Shown here piece by piece: positions 55,965-63,767 of a DNA stretch of 64,000 bases; within the stretch, counting starts at the first letter, position 1, and each line of letters starts with the position of its first letter. Source of the stretch: Streptomyces sp. NBC_01314 (GTDB lineage: Bacteria > Actinomycetota > Actinomycetes > Streptomycetales > Streptomycetaceae); contig NZ_CP108394.1 of the NCBI RefSeq assembly GCF_041435215.1, positions 1,240,001-1,304,000 of the forward strand, given 5' to 3'. Below the pieces are notes generated by a model. It made no database searches, was not told the DNA's origin, and worked only from the letters and a program-made list of their open reading frames with translations. The position numbers and the translations under genes are program-made.

Positions 55965-56990
55965 TCAGGTCTGCCGCAGCGGCTCGTACGCCTCGGCGCT
56001 CAGCCCGAACGTCCAGGCCACCCCCTGGCGGGCCGTGGCCGTCGTGGGCGGCACCCGCAGCCAGTAGGTACGGCTCGTGCCGTCCGGCTCCGGCGTGGAG
56101 TTGACGACCTCCACCATCACCACGTCCTCGTCACCGGGCAGGGCTGTCCGCCACAGCACACCCGTCTCGTCGCGGTGCACCGGCTTCGCCCCGGACTCCT
56201 CCAGGTAGCGGTCGTAGCCGTAGTACTCGAGCATCACGCGGCGCAGCTCCGCGTTCTCCTCCCCGCGGATCTCCGCCGGGGTCAGCGCGTCCAGCCGGTC
56301 GAGGAACGCTCCGGGGACGGGCAGCCCGCGCCAGGCGTACAGAACGAATCCGTCGGTGTAAGCGACCGCGGGTCCGTCGCCGCGGTCCAGGCGGCCCGCC
56401 TCGTCGCGGTGCAGTTCCACGGGCCGCTCGGCGACGACCGCGACGTTCTCGTAGGGCCACCACCAGCCGGCCGTGCGGGCCACCTCGGCGAGTCCGTCGA
56501 GACCGGGGGCCCCGTCGAAGGCGGACAGCCAGGCCGCGTCGTGCTGGCCGAGGACGGCGTCCAGGAGGAGCAGGCGGATGCCGGTCTCCGCCTTGCGGTC
56601 GGCGGGGGCCAGGGCCTCGACGACGCCGGTACGGACGCGGTCGACGAGCGGCCGGGTCGTCTCCCAGAGGTCGGCGCCCGTCGCGCGCCAGTGGTCGCTC
56701 CAGCCGGTGGGGCCCAGCCGGGTGTGCAGCCGGGCCCGTTCGGCGGCGACCGGTCTGTTGCGGACGGCGTCACGGACGCTCGCCCCGGTCGCCGGCAGCG
56801 CCTCACCGTCCTTTGCCGATGCTCCCGACAGCAGGCGTACCGCCTCCAGGGGCGAGCGGGCCCACACGATCCGCTCGGGCTCCCGCAGCCCCGCCCGCCG
56901 GTAGGCGAGCCGTACGCCCGCCTCGGTCCGCGCCCGGTCGCCCGCGCCGGTGGCCGCCGCCACCGCCCGCCAACTCGCCTGTTCCGTCAC
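55965..56990 (-). CDS. DUF6745-like protein
   Basis: 341-residue soluble protein. It begins with a helical region (WRAVAAATGAGDRARTEAGVRLAYRRAGLREPERIVWARSPLEAVRL in parts) and has a middle DGPAVAYTDGFVLYAWRGLPVPGAF and LEYYGYDRYLEESGAKPVHRDETGVLWR, which match the actinobacterial DUF6745 family as I remember it. Function unknown. It shares a strand with the small gene 74 bp upstream, and is divergent from the STM4015-4011 operon, near which such genes tend to occur (recalled, not checked). Confidence 0.6.
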   Translation of the reverse strand: MTEQASWRAVAAATGAGDRARTEAGVRLAYRRAGLREPERIVWARSPLEAVRLLSGASAKDGEALPATGASVRDAVRNRPVAAERARLHTRLGPTGWSDHWRATGADLWETTRPLVDRVRTGVVEALAPADRKAETGIRLLLLDAVLGQHDAAWLSAFDGAPGLDGLAEVARTAGWWWPYENVAVVAERPVELHRDEAGRLDRGDGPAVAYTDGFVLYAWRGLPVPGAFLDRLDALTPAEIRGEENAELRRVMLEYYGYDRYLEESGAKPVHRDETGVLWRTALPGDEDVVMVEVVNSTPEPDGTSRTYWLRVPPTTATARQGVAWTFGLSAEAYEPLRQT

Positions 56991-57064: not shown

Positions 57065-57391
57065 TCAGTCGGCGACGATCCGCACCGACCCCGGTACGTA
57101 CTCGCGCTGCCGTACGACCCGGTACCAGCCCTTGGGCAGGGAGATGGCCGCGTGCTCCTCGTGGACGACGCGGGCGCCCTCCGGCACGTGCAGCAGCATC
57201 GGCCCGAACACGCTCACCTCGCGGACGAGACGGCCGGGTCCGACCACGGCGTGGGCGTGACCGGTGACCTCGCCGAGGGCGAGGACGAGCCGGCCGCGCC
57301 CGTCGCGCGGTTCCGACACGGCGTCGAGCGCACTGCCGGGCACCGCGCTCTCCGCCAACGGCGCGATGAGGACGTCTCCTTGCCGGTACAT
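57065..57391 (-). CDS. Small conserved protein, partner of the DUF6745-like gene
   Basis: 108-residue protein: MYRQGDVLIAPLAESAVPG, then VLALGEVTGHAHAVVGPG and EHAAISLPKGWYRVVRQREY. The beta-rich pattern with a His-x-His pair in GHAHAV is often seen in short conserved proteins next to DUF6745 genes (recalled). ATG 57391 has GAAGGGAGA ahead and is preferred over upstream starts. Likely co-transcribed with the DUF6745-like gene 74 bp downstream. No function known. Confidence 0.6.
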   Translation of the reverse strand: MYRQGDVLIAPLAESAVPGSALDAVSEPRDGRGRLVLALGEVTGHAHAVVGPGRLVREVSVFGPMLLHVPEGARVVHEEHAAISLPKGWYRVVRQREYVPGSVRIVAD

Positions 57392-57650: not shown

Positions 57651-58619
57651 ATGACCATCGGGAGCCATCTGGAGGATTTCCACGGCCTGCCGGTCCACCG
57701 CTTCCCCACGTCGGTGAAGGGCCCGGAGGGCGCGGGGCACCTGCCCGCCCCCGAGTCGGTGGCCTGGAGCATCGCCGTGGACTCGTACGACAGCGAGGAG
57801 GAGTGGGAGGACGCGTTCGCGCGGTTCCTGGCCTCGGTCGACACCACGCAGGTGCGGGCGCTGGTCGTGGGGTCCTGGAGCGAGGCGTACGACAACGGCC
57901 CCGAGAAGATCGTCGAGGCCCTCGTCGCGGAGAAGGACCGGCTGCCCGCGCTGCGCGCGCTGTTCCTGGGCGACATGGTGGTGGAGGAGTGCGAGATCTC
58001 CTGGATCAACCAGGGCGATGTGGGCCCGCTGCTGAACGCCTTCCCCGAGCTGGAGGAGTTCGGGGTGCGCGGCGGCCAGGGGCTCGTCTTCCCGGCCGTG
58101 CGGCACGAGGGGCTGCGGACGCTGACGGTCGAGACCGGCGGCATGCCCGTCGAGGCCGTCCGGGGTGTGGCGGGCAGCGATCTGCCGGCTCTCGTCGAGC
58201 TGGACCTGTGGCTGGGCACGGCCGAGTACGGCGGCGACTCCGAGGTGGCGGACCTGGCGCCGATCCTCGCGGGCACCCGGCTGCCGGCCCTCAAGCATCT
58301 GGCGCTGCGCAACAGCGAGATGCAGGACGACATCTGCGCGGCCCTGGCCTCGGCCCCGGTGGTGGCCCGCCTGGACGTCCTCGACGTGTCGATGGGCGTC
58401 CTCACCGACGACGGCGCGACCGCGCTGCTCACGGGCCAGCCGCTCACCCACCTCACCACGCTGGACCTGCACCACAACTACCTCAGCACGGCGATACGCG
58501 ACCGCCTCCGGGACTCCCTTGAGGCCGCCGGGGTCCAGGTCGACGTCGACGCCGACGACGCCGAGTCGGATGAGGAGGAGGACGGCACGGTCTGGCGGTT
58601 CGTCGCGGTGGGCGAGTGA
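57651..58619 (+). CDS. STM4015-family leucine-rich-repeat-like protein
   Basis: 322-residue repeat protein. It starts GSHLEDFHGLPVHRFPTSVKG and has repeated Leu-rich units, such as LPALVELDLWLGTAEYGG, LPALKHLALRNSEMQDDI and LTHLTTLDLHHNYLS, giving an LRR-like solenoid, and an acidic end DVDADDAESDEEEDG. It fits the family called STM4015 after the Salmonella locus. Role unknown; possibly a scaffold or substrate-binding protein. First gene of the operon, with AAGGGGCGGGG ahead of ATG 57651. Confidence 0.82.
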   Translation: MTIGSHLEDFHGLPVHRFPTSVKGPEGAGHLPAPESVAWSIAVDSYDSEEEWEDAFARFLASVDTTQVRALVVGSWSEAYDNGPEKIVEALVAEKDRLPALRALFLGDMVVEECEISWINQGDVGPLLNAFPELEEFGVRGGQGLVFPAVRHEGLRTLTVETGGMPVEAVRGVAGSDLPALVELDLWLGTAEYGGDSEVADLAPILAGTRLPALKHLALRNSEMQDDICAALASAPVVARLDVLDVSMGVLTDDGATALLTGQPLTHLTTLDLHHNYLSTAIRDRLRDSLEAAGVQVDVDADDAESDEEEDGTVWRFVAVGE

Positions 58620-58657
58620 GTACGTAGGCGCTCGCGAGCGAGACAAAGGGGGATGGT

Positions 58658-59833
58658 GTGTCCGGTTGGAGCGGTGTGGCGGGGGCGGGGCCCGGCCCGT
58701 ACAGGTGGGTGGTCGTCGGCAACGGGGAGAACCGGCGGGTCGGGCTGTTCGTCGCGGCGGCGGAGGCGGCCGGTGTCGGCACGCCGCGTGTCGTCGAGTG
58801 GCGGGACGTGCTGCGCGACGGCGGTCACGAGTTCGCCGACGACGAGCTCGTACGGCTGGATTCGCCGGGCGAGAACGCCGAGGTGGACCGGCTGTTGCGG
58901 GGCGTGGACGATCCGACGCGGGTGGAGGGCTCGGCCACCTGGTACGCCCGTTTCCTGGCCGCGGTGGGGTCGTTGCGGGGCGGGCTGCGACTGGACGATC
59001 CGGCGGATCTGCCGGTGCTGTTCGACAAGCGGCTGTGCCACGCCCGGCTCGACGCGGCCGGGGTCCCGGTGCCGCCGTCGCCCACCTCGGGCGACGCGCG
59101 GCCGGTGCGCGGCTGGGACGACGTACGGGCGGCGATGCGGGAGCACGGCATGCCGCGCGTCTTCGTGAAGCCGGCCCACGGGTCCTCCGCGTCCGGGGTG
59201 CTGGCGATCGAGTCGTCGTCGAGCGGGCGGATCAGGGCCACCACCTCGGTGGAGGTGGCTTCCGACGGCCGGCTGCGCGCCCCGCTGCGGCTGCACAACT
59301 CGCTGCGCGTACGGCGCTACTCGGACGAGCGGGAGATCGCCGGCATCGTCGACGCCCTCGCGGCCGACGGGCTGCACATCGAGCGCTGGCTCCCGAAGGC
59401 GTCCGCGCACGGCAAGTCCGCCGACCTGCGGGTCCTGGTCGTGGCGGGCCGGGCCACGCACGCAGTCGTCCGCACCAGCCGTTTCCCGATGACCAATCTC
59501 CATCTCGGTGGGGTCCGGGGCGATCTGACGTCGGTCGTGGACGCGGCGGGCGACCGCTGGCGGCAGGCGCTCGACATCTGTGAGCGGGCCGCCGCCTGCT
59601 TCCCGGCCACCCTGTGCGTCGGAGTGGACCTGCTGCCGGCAATCGGCTGGCGGCGGTTCGCCGTGGGCGAGGTCAACGCGTTCGGCGATCTGCTGCCCCG
59701 CCTGACGGGGCTGCCGGGCGGCCCGGCGGAGGGCCTGGACACCTACGCGGCGCAGCTCGCGGCGGTGCGCGCCGCGCTGTCCCCGGCCCCCTCGCACCAC
59801 CCCCAGGCAAGGAAAGACCATGCACCCTTCTGA
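58658..59833 (+). CDS. STM4014-family ATP-grasp-like protein
   Basis: 391-residue protein with ATP-grasp features: an N-terminal Rossmann-like part WVVVGNGENRRVGLFVAAAEAAG, a central lid RVFVKPAHGSSASGVLAI with the ATP-binding Lys, ADLRVLVVAGRATHAVVRTS, and a C-terminal VGVDLLPAIGWRRFAVGEVNAFGDLLP with acidic and Asn metal ligands. ATP-grasp enzymes form amide or thioester bonds through acyl-phosphate. The GTG start has AAAGGGGG ahead, 38 nt after the STM4015-like stop. The end overlaps the next gene by 14 nt. Confidence 0.85.
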   Translation: MSGWSGVAGAGPGPYRWVVVGNGENRRVGLFVAAAEAAGVGTPRVVEWRDVLRDGGHEFADDELVRLDSPGENAEVDRLLRGVDDPTRVEGSATWYARFLAAVGSLRGGLRLDDPADLPVLFDKRLCHARLDAAGVPVPPSPTSGDARPVRGWDDVRAAMREHGMPRVFVKPAHGSSASGVLAIESSSSGRIRATTSVEVASDGRLRAPLRLHNSLRVRRYSDEREIAGIVDALAADGLHIERWLPKASAHGKSADLRVLVVAGRATHAVVRTSRFPMTNLHLGGVRGDLTSVVDAAGDRWRQALDICERAAACFPATLCVGVDLLPAIGWRRFAVGEVNAFGDLLPRLTGLPGGPAEGLDTYAAQLAAVRAALSPAPSHHPQARKDHAPF

Positions 59834-60770
59834 CACGACCGACAGGGCTGACACCGCAGGCCGGGCTGACCCGGCGGACACGGCTGACACCGCAGGCCCG
59901 GCGAACACGGCCCACCGGCCTTCCGAGGCAACGCGGACACCCGAGGCAGTACGGACACCCGACATGAACGAGGTGGTGGGCCGCGACGACCTGCTGCTGC
60001 TCACCCTCGACACCCTGCGGTACGACGTGGCCGTGGCGCTCGCGGCGGAGGGCCGGCTGCCGAACCTGGCCGCCCACCTGCCGGGCGGCACCTGGGAGAA
60101 GCGGCACGCGCCCGGCAGCTTCACCTACGCCTCGCACCAGGCGATGTTCGCCGGTTTCCTGCCGACCCCGGCGGCGCCCGGACCGCATCCGCGGCTCTTC
60201 GCGAGCCGGTTCGCCGGCAGCGAGACCACCGAGCGGCGCACCTTCGTCTTCGACAACCCCGACCTGGTGTCGGCGCTCGCCGAGCACGGCTATCGCACCG
60301 TGTGCGTCGGCGGTGTCGGCTTCTTCAACAAGCAGGGGGCACTCGGCAGCGTCCTGCCGGGCCTGTTCCAGGAGAGCCACTGGGAGCCCGAGTTCTCCGT
60401 GGCGTCGCCGACGTCCTTCGAGTCCCAGGTGGCCCGCGCCGAGCGGATCGTGACCGAACTGCCCGCCGAGGAGCGGCTGTTCCTGTTCCTCAACGCCTCG
60501 GCTCTGCACCAGCCCAACTGGTTCCATCTGCCGGGCGCCACCCGCGAGGCGGGCGACAGCCTGGTCACGCACGCGGCGGCCCTCGTCTACATCGACCGGC
60601 ACATCGGGCGGCTCTTCGCCGCGATGAGTTCGCGGCGCCGCTGCTTCGCCGTCGTCTGCTCCGACCACGGGACGACATACGGCGAGGACGGCTACACCGG
60701 GCACCGTCTCGGCCACGAGGCCGTGTGGACCGTCCCCTACAGCCACTTCTTCCTGGAGCCGTCCGCATGA
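59820..60770 (+). CDS. STM4013/SEN3800-family hydrolase (alkaline-phosphatase fold)
   Basis: 316-residue enzyme of the alkaline phosphatase/sulfatase superfamily. LLLLTLDTLRYDVA has the first metal Asp; PGSFTYASHQAMFAGFLP is where the nucleophile Thr/Ser lies; VCSDHGTTYGEDGYTGHRLGHE holds the Asp-His and two further metal His. It would hydrolyse or transfer a phosphate- or sulfate-type ester. The first 48 residues are an Asp/Thr/Ala repeat (ADTAGRADPADTADTAGPAN) seemingly added to an older start at 59964 (MNEVVGRDD). ATG 59820 has AAGGAAA ahead; it overlaps the ATP-grasp gene by 14 nt. Confidence 0.83.
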   Translation: MHPSDTTDRADTAGRADPADTADTAGPANTAHRPSEATRTPEAVRTPDMNEVVGRDDLLLLTLDTLRYDVAVALAAEGRLPNLAAHLPGGTWEKRHAPGSFTYASHQAMFAGFLPTPAAPGPHPRLFASRFAGSETTERRTFVFDNPDLVSALAEHGYRTVCVGGVGFFNKQGALGSVLPGLFQESHWEPEFSVASPTSFESQVARAERIVTELPAEERLFLFLNASALHQPNWFHLPGATREAGDSLVTHAAALVYIDRHIGRLFAAMSSRRRCFAVVCSDHGTTYGEDGYTGHRLGHEAVWTVPYSHFFLEPSA

Positions 60771-62131
60771 CCCTCACCACGACCACCGCTGTCACCGCCG
60801 CCCCCGCACCGGCGCGGCCGTACCAGCACTACGTGTACGCCTACCCGCACAAGACGGCCTACCGGAAGCTGCCCGGCACCCCACGGCTCGCGGACCTGTG
60901 GGCCGGGGAGTCCCGGCAGGCGCTGTCGCTGTACGCGCACATACCGTTCTGCGAGGTGCGCTGCGGTTTCTGCAACCTCTTCACCCGGATCGGCGCGCCG
61001 GACGGGCTGACCGGCCGCTACCTCGACGCCCTCGAACGGCAGGCGATCGCGGTGCGGGAGGCGCTCGGGGACGCGGAGCCCGCGCGGTTCGCGAACGCCG
61101 CGTTCGGCGGCGGCACCCCCACCTATCTGGAGGCCGCCGAGCTGGAGCGGCTGTGCGACATCGCCGAGCGGCACCTGGGTGCGGACCTGCGGGCGATCCC
61201 ACTGTCGGTGGAGGCCTCCCCCGCCACGGCGACGGCCGACCGGCTGGCCGTCCTCGCCGAGCGGGGCGCCACGCGGCTGAGCCTCGGCGTGCAGACCTTC
61301 GTGGCGGAGGAGGCGCGGGCGGCCGTACGCCCGCAGCGGCGCTCCGATGTGGAGGCGGCGCTGTCGCGTGTCCGCGACACGGGCATCCCGGTCCTCAACA
61401 TCGACCTGATCTACGGCATCGACGGGCAGACGGCGGCCAGTTGGCGGCTGTCGCTGGACGCGGCCCTCGCCTGGCTGCCGGAGGAGATCTATCTGTATCC
61501 GCTGTACGTCCGCCCGTTGACGGGCCTCGGCCGCAACGCGGACCCGGCAGTAGCGGACCGTGACTGGGACGAGGCCCGGCTGCGGCGCTACCGCGAAGGC
61601 CGCGACCATCTGCTCGCGCACGGCTACGAGCAGGTCTCCATGCGGATGTTCCGCCGTACGGACGCGCCGCCGCAGGGCCCGGACGACTACGCCTGCCAGA
61701 CCGACGGCATGATCGGCCTGGGCTGCGGCGCCCGTTCGTACACATCGAAGCTGCACTACTCCTTCGACTACGCGGTCGGCATGGGCCAGATCCGCACGAT
61801 CATCGACGACTACACGGCCACCGAGGACTTCAGCAGGGCCGTGCACGGCCGTGCGGTCGACGAGGACGAGGCACGGCGCCGCCATCTGCTGCAGTCGCTG
61901 CTCCAGGCGCGGGGGCTGCCGGTGACGGAGTACCGGCAGCGGTTCGGGTCGGACCCGTACACGGACTTCCCGGTGGAACTGGACCTGCTGGTGGCGCGCG
62001 GCTGGCTGGCGGAGGCGGACGGCGGGCTGCTGAAACTCTCCGCCGAGGGGCTGGCCCACTCGGACGCCATCGGGCCCGGCTTCTTCTCCCCCGCCGTACG
62101 GGCGGCGATGGCCGGGTACGAGCTGAAGTGA
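60767..62131 (+). CDS. STM4012-family radical SAM protein (HemW-like)
   Basis: 454-residue radical SAM enzyme of the HemN/HemW branch. It begins with a Thr/Ala-rich tail, then YVYAYPHKTAYRKLPG and the cluster motif AHIPFCEVRCGFCNLF (Cys62, Cys66, Cys69), FGGGTPTYLEAAELERL, the SAM-site VEASPATATADRLAVLAERGATRLSLGVQTF, DLIYGIDGQT and a HemW-like C-terminal half ending in a winged region with YTDFPVELDLLVARGWL. Anaerobic radical chemistry is expected; the substrate is unknown. ATG overlaps the previous stop (ATGA). Confidence 0.88.
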   Translation: MTLTTTTAVTAAPAPARPYQHYVYAYPHKTAYRKLPGTPRLADLWAGESRQALSLYAHIPFCEVRCGFCNLFTRIGAPDGLTGRYLDALERQAIAVREALGDAEPARFANAAFGGGTPTYLEAAELERLCDIAERHLGADLRAIPLSVEASPATATADRLAVLAERGATRLSLGVQTFVAEEARAAVRPQRRSDVEAALSRVRDTGIPVLNIDLIYGIDGQTAASWRLSLDAALAWLPEEIYLYPLYVRPLTGLGRNADPAVADRDWDEARLRRYREGRDHLLAHGYEQVSMRMFRRTDAPPQGPDDYACQTDGMIGLGCGARSYTSKLHYSFDYAVGMGQIRTIIDDYTATEDFSRAVHGRAVDEDEARRRHLLQSLLQARGLPVTEYRQRFGSDPYTDFPVELDLLVARGWLAEADGGLLKLSAEGLAHSDAIGPGFFSPAVRAAMAGYELK

Positions 62132-63024
62132 CGGCACCCATGGACCTGACGATCCTCTACCGCGGCCCTCTCGCCTCCTGCGACTACGACTGCCCCTACT
62201 GCCCGTTCGCCAAGCGCCGCGACTCGACGGCCCGACTGCGGGCCGACCGCGCGGCCCTGGAGCGGTTCACCGCCTGGGCACGGGAGCAGACCGGCGACCG
62301 GCTCTCGGTGCTCTTCACGCCGTGGGGCGAGGGGCTGGTGCGCTCCTGGTACCGGAAGGCCCTGATCGACCTCTCCCACGAGCCGCACATCGACCGGGTG
62401 GCGATCCAGACGAACCTCAGCTGCCGCACGGAGTGGCTGGAGCGGGCCGACCCGGACACCGTGGCCCTGTGGTGCACGTACCACCCGGGGGAGACCCCGT
62501 ACGAGCGGTTCCTGGACAAGACCCGCAGGCTGGCCGGGGCGGGGATCCGCTTCAGCGTGGGGATCGTCGGACTGCCCGAGCATCTGGAGCACGCCCGCCG
62601 GCTGCGCGGGGAGCTGCCGGAGCAGGTGTATCTATGGGTGAACGCCGCCGAGGGGCACACCTACACCGACGAAGAGGCCGCGGTGTGGAGCGGGTTGGAC
62701 CCCCTCTTCCCGTTCAGCCGCCATCCGCACCGCTCGGCGGGCCGCGCCTGCCGTACCGGCTCGACGGTCGTGTCGGTGGACGGCGAAGGAACGGTGCGGC
62801 GCTGCCACTTCGTCAAGGCCGAACTCGGCAACCTCTACGACGGTTCCTTCCGCACGGCACTCGCGCCCCGCCCGTGCCCGCTGTCCGTCTGCGACTGCCA
62901 CATCGGGTACGTCCACCTCGAAACGCTGCCGCTGTACGACGTCTTCGCGGGCGGCGTCCTGGAACGCGTACCGACAATGGAGGCACGACAGGGAACAGGA
63001 ACAGGAAAGCGAGTGAGTCCATGA
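62128..63024 (+). CDS. STM4011-family radical SAM protein
   Basis: 298-residue radical SAM enzyme with the cluster motif LASCDYDCPYCPFAKR (Cys18, Cys22, Cys25). It has a TIM-barrel pattern including LFTPWGEGL, VAIQTNLSC, LWCTYHPGE and FSVGIVGLPEH, and more cysteines in the last quarter, ACRTG, RRCHF and PCPLSVCDCHIGY, which look able to hold an extra Fe-S cluster as in SPASM-like tails. A second enzyme for the same substrate as STM4012 is likely. GTG start shares a GTGA overlap with the STM4012 stop. Confidence 0.88.
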   Translation: MTAPMDLTILYRGPLASCDYDCPYCPFAKRRDSTARLRADRAALERFTAWAREQTGDRLSVLFTPWGEGLVRSWYRKALIDLSHEPHIDRVAIQTNLSCRTEWLERADPDTVALWCTYHPGETPYERFLDKTRRLAGAGIRFSVGIVGLPEHLEHARRLRGELPEQVYLWVNAAEGHTYTDEEAAVWSGLDPLFPFSRHPHRSAGRACRTGSTVVSVDGEGTVRRCHFVKAELGNLYDGSFRTALAPRPCPLSVCDCHIGYVHLETLPLYDVFAGGVLERVPTMEARQGTGTGKRVSP

Positions 63025-63767
63025 CCTCAGCGGTCAACAGCAGTGTGTGGATACGTCGTTACCGGCCCGCGCCCGAAGCGGCTGTCAGACTGGTGTGTCT
63101 GCCGCACGCGGGCGGCTCGGCGAGCTACTACCTCCCCATGGCGCAGGCCCTCGCGCCCGGGGCCGATGTGCTGGCCGCGCAGTATCCGGGGCGCCAGGAC
63201 CGTTACGCCGAGCCGCCGTCGGAGAGCGTCCGGGAGCTGGCCGAGCGGATCGTCGAGGCCGTCGGCGGGGACGACCGTCCGCTCGCCCTCTTCGGGCACA
63301 GCATGGGCGCGGTGGTCGCCCACGAGATGGCGCTGAAGCTGGAGGCGGCGGGCCGGGCCCCGGTCCGGCTGTTCGTGTCGGGGCGGCGCGCCCCCTCCGC
63401 GCCCCGGGACGGCAGGCGACTGCACAGGGCGAGCGACGCCGAACTGATCGAGGCCGTACGCCGGCTCGACGGCACCGACGGCCAGGTCCTCGAGGACGAG
63501 GAGCTGCTGCAGCTCGTACTGCCGGCGCTGCGCGGTGACTACAAGGCCCTGGAGACGTACGAGCCGCGCCCCGGCGACCGGCTGACCTGCCCGGTCACCG
63601 TCCTCACCGGCGACGCCGACCCGGTGACCCCGGTGGCGGACGCGCGTGCCTGGGCGGACCACACCGGCGGGCCGACCGAGCTGTGTGTGTTCCCCGGCGG
63701 CCACTTCTACCTCAACGACCGGCCGGGGGAGGTCGTCGACGTCGTGCGTCGGCACCTCGGGCTGTAG
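63021..63767 (+). CDS. Type II thioesterase
   Basis: 248-residue alpha/beta hydrolase of the type II thioesterase (RifR/GrsT) class, which normally clears wrong acyl groups from carrier proteins or releases products in polyketide and nonribosomal peptide pathways. VRLVCLPHAGGSASYYLPMAQAL is the class marker, LFGHSMGAVVAHE the nucleophile Ser94, DADPVTPV the Asp site and FPGGHFYL the His. ATG overlaps the STM4011 stop (ATGA), so it is translated with the radical SAM genes. No carrier-protein or synthetase gene is seen in the window. Confidence 0.9.
   Translation: MTSAVNSSVWIRRYRPAPEAAVRLVCLPHAGGSASYYLPMAQALAPGADVLAAQYPGRQDRYAEPPSESVRELAERIVEAVGGDDRPLALFGHSMGAVVAHEMALKLEAAGRAPVRLFVSGRRAPSAPRDGRRLHRASDAELIEAVRRLDGTDGQVLEDEELLQLVLPALRGDYKALETYEPRPGDRLTCPVTVLTGDADPVTPVADARAWADHTGGPTELCVFPGGHFYLNDRPGEVVDVVRRHLGL

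Follow-up and report, generated by a model that had tools for sequence, protein, structure and literature searches.

The STM4015-4014-4013-4012-4011 operon of Streptomyces sp. NBC_01314 seems to act on the C-terminal tail of its own repeat protein

The closest described relatives of the STM4015-4014-4013-4012-4011 operon, studied here in a 64,000-nucleotide stretch of Streptomyces sp. NBC_01314 (RefSeq assembly GCF_041435215.1, contig NZ_CP108394.1, positions 1,240,001 to 1,304,000 of the forward strand; hereafter the window), are the amino-group carrier systems, i.e. LysW with LysX/ArgX, and AmCP of Streptomyces. A C-terminal Glu on an acidic carrier is common to both, and the fold nearest to STM4014 is that of LysX/ArgX. 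In comparison with these systems, the putative carrier here is a leucine-rich-repeat (LRR) or WGR-LRR protein, the operon adds two radical S-adenosylmethionine (SAM) enzymes and an alkaline-phosphatase fold, and no carrier peptidase was recognised. LysW is a small zinc-binding globular protein, and systems of its type form an isopeptide bond at the gamma-carboxylate of the Glu; of the features of such a carrier, STM4015 has the terminal Glu on an acidic protein and lacks the small zinc-binding domain, being an LRR or WGR-LRR protein instead. By analogy, the STM4015 system may work like an amino-group carrier system, yet without the LysW carrier domain. A second relative, RimK, adds glutamates to ribosomal protein S6 (RpsF), with no radical chemistry there, unlike the operon with STM4011 and STM4012. 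In graspetides, a separate short precursor receives intramolecular cross-links; the likeness lies in an ATP-grasp ligase acting on a ribosomal substrate, with the graspetide ligase PsnB in the Foldseek list of STM4014, and the difference in the absence of a radical SAM pair from graspetides. For the Pearlins (3-thia amino acids, ammosamides), PMC9303977 describes a ribosomal carrier that receives an amino acid at its C-terminus, this residue being altered afterwards, radical SAM chemistry included. Addition followed by alteration is also what is proposed for STM4015, but the peptide aminoacyl-tRNA ligases (PEARLs) use aminoacyl-tRNA, and the Pearlin carrier is a peptide whereas STM4015 is a repeat protein.

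The original prediction, made from the DNA alone, knew of no assigned function for the five families, and none was found in the open literature; nor was an account of the STM4011-4015 system or an existing description of the pathway found there, a search that left most subscription papers and all preprints outside its coverage. PMC3844500 lists a sigma-54 site within STM4013.S. The five families are known by Salmonella locus numbers only, despite their occurrence across several phyla. The core features of the operon in the window are as follows.

57651..58619, + strand: STM4015, leucine-rich-repeat protein, proposed substrate or carrier (NF038076, 404 bits, cut-off 275)
58533..58592, + strand: acidic linker of STM4015, the 20 residues preceding the tail octamer
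58593..58616, + strand: C-terminal octamer of STM4015, WRFVAVGE, ending in the codon of the fixed Glu (58614-58616)
58658..59833, + strand: STM4014, GTG start, LysX/ArgX/RimK-like ATP-grasp ligase (NF038074, 447 bits, cut-off 175)
59820..60770, + strand: STM4013, alkaline-phosphatase-fold hydrolase or transferase (NF038075, 421 bits, cut-off 250)
60767..62131, + strand: STM4012, HemN-type radical SAM enzyme (NF006067, 633 bits, cut-off 380)
62128..63024, + strand: STM4011, radical SAM enzyme with a twitch/SPASM-like C-terminal part (NF038073, 415 bits, cut-off 200)

This five-gene set seems to work on the tail of its own repeat protein rather than on a free small molecule. STM4015, previously read as a binder, looks like a substrate, since it ends in a fixed C-terminal Glu and STM4014 is kin to LysX/ArgX and RimK. 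We put at about an even chance that the operon's enzymes act on STM4015 itself, which would be charged at its C-terminal Glu by STM4014 and then modified by STM4011, STM4012 and STM4013. In the proposed sequence of events, the repeat body would present an acidic, aromatic C-terminal tail stopping in glutamate; STM4014, with ATP, would activate a carboxylate of the terminal Glu and couple an amine, probably an amino acid; next, STM4011 and STM4012 would alter either the attached residue or the aromatic residues of the tail; and STM4013 would make or break a phosphate ester on the attached group, a role that a HAD enzyme or an adenosine 5'-phosphosulfate (APS) kinase may take in some lineages. 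The product could be released in the manner of amino-group carrier proteins, or it could remain attached to the tail and serve as a built-in cofactor or as a switch. A more specific version, in which the LRR protein is a giant amino-group-carrier-like scaffold, charged in the manner of LysX and rebuilt by radical SAM and phosphohydrolase-fold enzymes to give a released metabolite or a displayed covalent cofactor, is offered tentatively and is more doubtful. If the tail is indeed the reaction site, the puzzle of the substrate narrows to a single protein, and the carrier-protein strategy would extend to repeat proteins and to this radical SAM pair.

Glu was the last residue in every row of the STM4015 alignment and in 93 of 93 complete copies, a count from which one frameshifted STM4015 (L034) was left out, and also in all 120 listed homologues, a set of close relatives. 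The same end was present in three Embleya copies, a Calothrix orphan and two Escherichia coli copies, of which one is annotated as frameshifted and was read in its downstream piece only. Within the octamer, Arg at position -7 and Tyr or Phe at -6 each recur in 90 of the 93 copies and Trp or Tyr at -8 in 85, with Thr (63) or Gly/Ala (24) at -2, and the preceding 20-residue linker had a mean acidic excess of 6.3, with one copy at or below zero. The last residues of STM4014, STM4013, STM4012 and STM4011 vary across copies. A constraint from start/stop overlap or ribosome binding was rejected as the cause of the fixed Glu, because both Glu codons (47 GAA, 46 GAG) and all three stops (TAA 41, TGA 28, TAG 24) are used and the Glu persists in orphan copies that lack a following STM4014. 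A degenerate tail-plus-stop pattern had one occurrence in the whole genome, and its reversed control had none. The Calothrix orphan, an STM4015-like frame on a plasmid (L188:2014-3288), is annotated as hypothetical and has the tail RYCSVAE.

STM4015 is an LRR or WGR-LRR protein of roughly 280-350 residues, with an N-terminal extension in Bacteroides and Undibacterium, that of Bacteroides matching WGR-domain proteins. The AlphaFold2 model had a mean predicted local distance difference test score (pLDDT) of 92.3, with residues 311-320 averaging 88 and the final two 66. Its top fold match and closest solved structure was PDB 2RA8 (E 5.6e-19), a structural-genomics entry without function that was not found named in any paper of the open literature. 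This entry is Q64V53 of Bacteroides fragilis, an STM4015 orthologue over its full length; its aligned part closes with YPMITE, and the 8 further residues after the Glu are presumably a tag.

The kinship of STM4014 provides an independent line of evidence. Profile searches matched LysX (1.3e-5) and RimK (1.3e-4), and the predicted model (pLDDT 90.4) had ArgX:LysW, LysX and RimK as its nearest folds, the top hit being ArgX bound to its carrier LysW. LysX and RimK are nearest by both profile and fold, although STM4014 remains below their curated cut-offs (17 against 276 bits and 23 against 143 bits, respectively). Ligases of the LysX/ArgX and RimK kind have as their target the C-terminal glutamate of a second protein, and STM4014 is proposed to act on that of STM4015. 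In Embleya sp. NBC_00888 (L190), STM4014 and STM4013 are fused in one 765-codon open frame.

The tail and the ligase together bear on the best surviving alternative, which we consider unlikely, namely that a small molecule or separate peptide is what the enzymes make or modify, that the STM4015 solenoid only binds it or scaffolds the enzymes, and that its tail is structural or serves docking. LRR proteins are usually binders, ATP-binding cassette (ABC) transporter-like frames near several loci would suit such a pathway, and so would the phosphate-handling neighbours (HAD in E. coli and Salmonella; an APS-kinase-like frame in 21 of 61 Paenibacillaceae loci). However, this alternative leaves the obligatory last Glu and the kinship of STM4014 to LysX/ArgX/RimK unexplained, and it is on these two points that the solenoid as a mere binder, as in the original prediction, gives way to STM4015 as a candidate substrate. 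The wider proposal of a dedicated pathway held in part: there is one co-inherited system with a radical SAM pair, an ATP-grasp ligase and an alkaline-phosphatase fold, but the solenoid binder and an added thioesterase fall away.

Slightly less probable is a modification confined to the tail, as in ribosomally synthesised and post-translationally modified peptides (RiPPs), in which STM4014 would act like PsnB and link the terminal Glu, or carboxylates of the linker, to Thr or Ser, and a radical SAM enzyme would cross-link Trp/Tyr/Arg of the octamer, with no addition from outside. The near-fixed aromatics and Arg of the octamer would fit, as would the resemblance of the C-terminal part of STM4011 to SkfB, a RiPP enzyme, and PsnB was among the top Foldseek hits of STM4014. 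However, PsnB appeared there from rank 8 on, below LysX/ArgX, the first seven VIA rows were all LysX/ArgX and RimK, and the ester partner at -2 is not universal (Thr in 63 of 93, Gly/Ala in 24 of 93).

The reading of STM4015 as a substrate was also set against a small natural comparison, provided by orphan copies of STM4015, i.e. those with no operon behind them. Its second batch, 17 genomes taken from a longer list, was chosen chiefly because their best matches were weak. Where the operon lay elsewhere in the genome, 8 of the 11 fetched orphans ended in Glu (G161, G305, G299, G297, G288, G296, G487 and G538) and three did not (G321, G276 and G281). Among genomes in which STM4011 stayed below its cut-off, none of five orphans did so (G270, G311, G335, G539 and G594), while a sixth such case, G552, with a decayed operon and a broken STM4014, had kept its Glu. 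The one-sided Fisher p was 0.013, or 0.043 if G552 is counted as lacking the operon, for cases that are not independent, since the eight Glu-less tails fall in three clades of the tree, and genomes with the operon are found in two of these clades. G311 is the cleanest case: it has relics of DUF6745 (an accessory gene described below) and an orphan ending in Val. The four nearest sisters of this orphan (branch 100/99) come from genomes that carry the operon and all have a terminal Glu, and the same holds for the tails of two more sequences at a less well supported branch (90/75). Orphans of a paralogous STM4015 class (L136, L138, L140 and L165), with tails ending VGP(V/L)(S/T)Y, form one clade with that of G335.

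That the tail is a C-terminal recognition signal (a docking motif, degron or assembly tag) which is never chemically changed has a similarly low probability, for although free C-terminal carboxylates are common in recognition signals, the tail is fairly ordered in the STM4015 model and one decayed operon still keeps its Glu, the operon supplies a ligase of the very group that reads a C-terminal Glu.

The remaining three enzymes would act after charging by STM4014. STM4012 is HemN-like, with homology to the HemN core and a CX3CX2C motif; against PDB it matched HemN 1OLT (1e-57, profile positions 15-413) and the radical SAM methyltransferase NocN (3e-35). The cluster Cys of its CX3CX2C motif are invariant, as are Y56, E149, R188 and D213, which we take to match the SAM-binding residues of HemN. 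In STM4011, C18, C22 and C25, the CX3CX2C cysteines of the SAM cluster, are invariant together with C208, G221, C226, C250, C255 and C257, of which C208-X12-G221-X4-C226 fits the first half of the SPASM motif, whereas C250, C255 and C257 do not fit the second half. A match of its C-terminal part to SkfB (6EFN, 3e-4) supports a twitch-like assignment, and STM4011 probably carries one auxiliary cluster. STM4013 was closest in profile searches to arylsulfatases and nucleotide pyrophosphatase/phosphodiesterases, with invariant D64, T102, D282, H283 and H299 and Thr at the presumed nucleophile position. The nucleophile motif of formylglycine-type sulfatases is Cys/Ser-x-Pro-x-Arg; STM4013 has FT(Y/W)xxH, with the invariant Thr102, where this motif would stand. 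A formylglycine sulfatase was therefore rejected, although the Pfam Sulfatase profile scored over its cut-off (30.9 bits, cut-off 25), and because of the Thr in place of Cys/Ser a phosphate-ester enzyme is more likely.

The five genes are inherited together. Across 91 loci (L002-L091 and the window), 88 carried STM4015-4014-4013-4012-4011 in the same order on one strand, and the three exceptions were a Bacteroides plasmid, with a fragment only of STM4013 and no detectable STM4012, and two loci truncated by contig ends. The named-genome scan behind this set contributed 80 loci, the best 80 of 583 relatives, with 60 of the 80 from Paenibacillaceae. A tblastn search of plasmids with STM4011 as query returned 13 records, with matches in Streptomyces, Embleya, Nonomuraea, Methylobacterium, Deinococcus, Paenibacillus, Salmonella and Bacteroides. 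All five genes occur together in Actinomycetota, Bacillota, Pseudomonadota, Deinococcota and Candidatus Melainabacteria, and a partial set in Bacteroidota. The five genes are a conserved unit, far beyond chance.

A sample of 101 genomes of the window's genus, searched at cut-off with the profiles of three of the families (STM4015, STM4011 and STM4014), gave the same picture. STM4015 was over its cut-off in 45 genomes and STM4011 in 43, with both in 42, STM4015 alone in 3 (G270, G311 and G335), STM4011 alone in 1 (G260) and neither in 55, including G310. STM4014 was over its cut-off in 42 genomes, these being 41 of the 42 with both STM4015 and STM4011, plus G310. The expectation that the families would keep together is thus borne out, and their being found mostly apart, which would have spoken against the original prediction, is not what was observed. 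The STM4011-only locus of G260 is apparently a deletion remnant, and decayed operons in G310, G552 and G260 (L147, L182 and L183) show recent loss inside the genus. The operon is patchy more widely, since only 6 of 246 genomes drawn from across the phylum passed the STM4011 cut-off. A Salmonella query spanning STM4015-4012 matched 154 of 5426 E. coli genomes, chromosomally; at the two loci opened (L186 and L187), the operon lies between the yih/sulfoquinovose region and typA, and one STM4015 is annotated as frameshifted. In the window's 11.3-Mb genome STM4011 is present as a single copy, and the closest named relatives of the protein are from Streptomyces. A single-protein query with STM4011 found no relative in viral contigs, and an anti-phage defence system was rejected, PADLOC-DB 2023 giving only partial matches of 17 and 29 bits among 8 proteins.

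Three further features of the window adjoin the core genes.

55965..56990, - strand: DUF6745 protein, accessory partner (PF20530, 377 bits)
57065..57391, - strand: 108-residue protein, accessory partner, divergently transcribed, with invariant His/Glu residues
63021..63767, + strand: thioesterase, type II-like, adjacent to but outside the system (Pfam Thioesterase PF00975, 177.5 bits, cut-off 26.4)

The first two, which the original prediction had overlooked, belong to the actinobacterial version of the system. They stand together beside the operon at 23 of the 91 loci (Actinomycetota, Deinococcus, Methylobacterium and Obscuribacterales), where the 108-residue gene always accompanies DUF6745. 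In the genus sample, 35 of the 101 genomes had DUF6745 copies above 360 bits, by position beside the operon in all 35 (the G305 copy has an internal stop), and five weaker matches (90-107 bits) lay elsewhere. The 108-residue protein ends in Asp in 23 of 23 copies and has invariant H45, H47, H77, E79 and H80; a profile search of PDB gave no match, and a small metal-binding barrel is our guess. The last residue of DUF6745 is Thr in 20 and Ala in 3 of 23 copies. Leucine-rich stretches are seen in Deinococcus-type copies of DUF6745, which has a conserved C-terminus and a profile match to the LRR of the plant NADase receptor 7crb.

The thioesterase, by which the operon had been described as extended, was rejected as a pathway member and is a local neighbour only. 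It adjoins the operon at 1 of 91 loci, the window itself, and although a match at E <= 1e-60 was present in 71 of the 101 genus genomes, among the listed places (at most 27 candidates per genome scored) that of the window alone stands beside STM4011. A nearby small open frame as peptide substrate, also suggested earlier, did not emerge: among frames of at least 40 residues within 6 kb of the core genes, joined by single-linkage BLAST clustering, none that is small recurred across lineages in the 45 best clusters. The clusters that did recur were large and general, as judged from sequence, i.e. substrate-binding or regulator-like (26 frames, 20 loci, six groups), P-loop kinase (27 loci, four groups) and ABC transporter ATPase-like (25 frames, 18 loci, four groups).

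In E. coli and Salmonella, the neighbouring gene of STM4011 encodes a Cof-type HAD phosphatase, and at the Bacteroides locus a HAD domain, below its curated cut-off, is fused to STM4011. The APS-kinase-like frame of Paenibacillaceae, recognised by its P-loop pattern, directly follows STM4011 at L045, L058, L025 and 18 further loci, and the three such frames tested were all over the apsK cut-off. In S. cadmiisoli, a TauE/SafE sulfite exporter gene (L002:9906-10616) overlaps the end of STM4011 by 4 nucleotides (nt). A sulfur theme across APS kinase in Paenibacillaceae, TauE in S. cadmiisoli and the sulfoquinovose genes of E. coli was rejected as inconsistent across lineages. The window contains no tRNA, and no Rfam family at gathering score.

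At the reading-frame level, the layout first described for the six-gene run was reproduced: STM4015 and STM4014 are separated by 38 nt, STM4014 and STM4013 overlap by 14 nt, and the next three junctions overlap by 4 nt (ATGA, GTGA and ATGA). The protein classes (repeat protein, ATP-grasp, alkaline-phosphatase fold and two radical SAM enzymes) were likewise upheld, all five STM proteins exceeding their NCBIfam cut-offs. Two of the overlaps depend on the choice of start. The family-conserved part of STM4013 runs from Met49 (59964), and the database copy of STM4011, at 294 residues, implies the ATG at 62140, probably the true start, rather than the GTG at 62128. Between 59830 and 59962, tandem repeats of 9 and 18 bases encode a low-complexity, Thr/Ala/Asp-rich N-terminus of STM4013, in a position comparable to that of the linker in the shared STM4014-4013 frame of Embleya.

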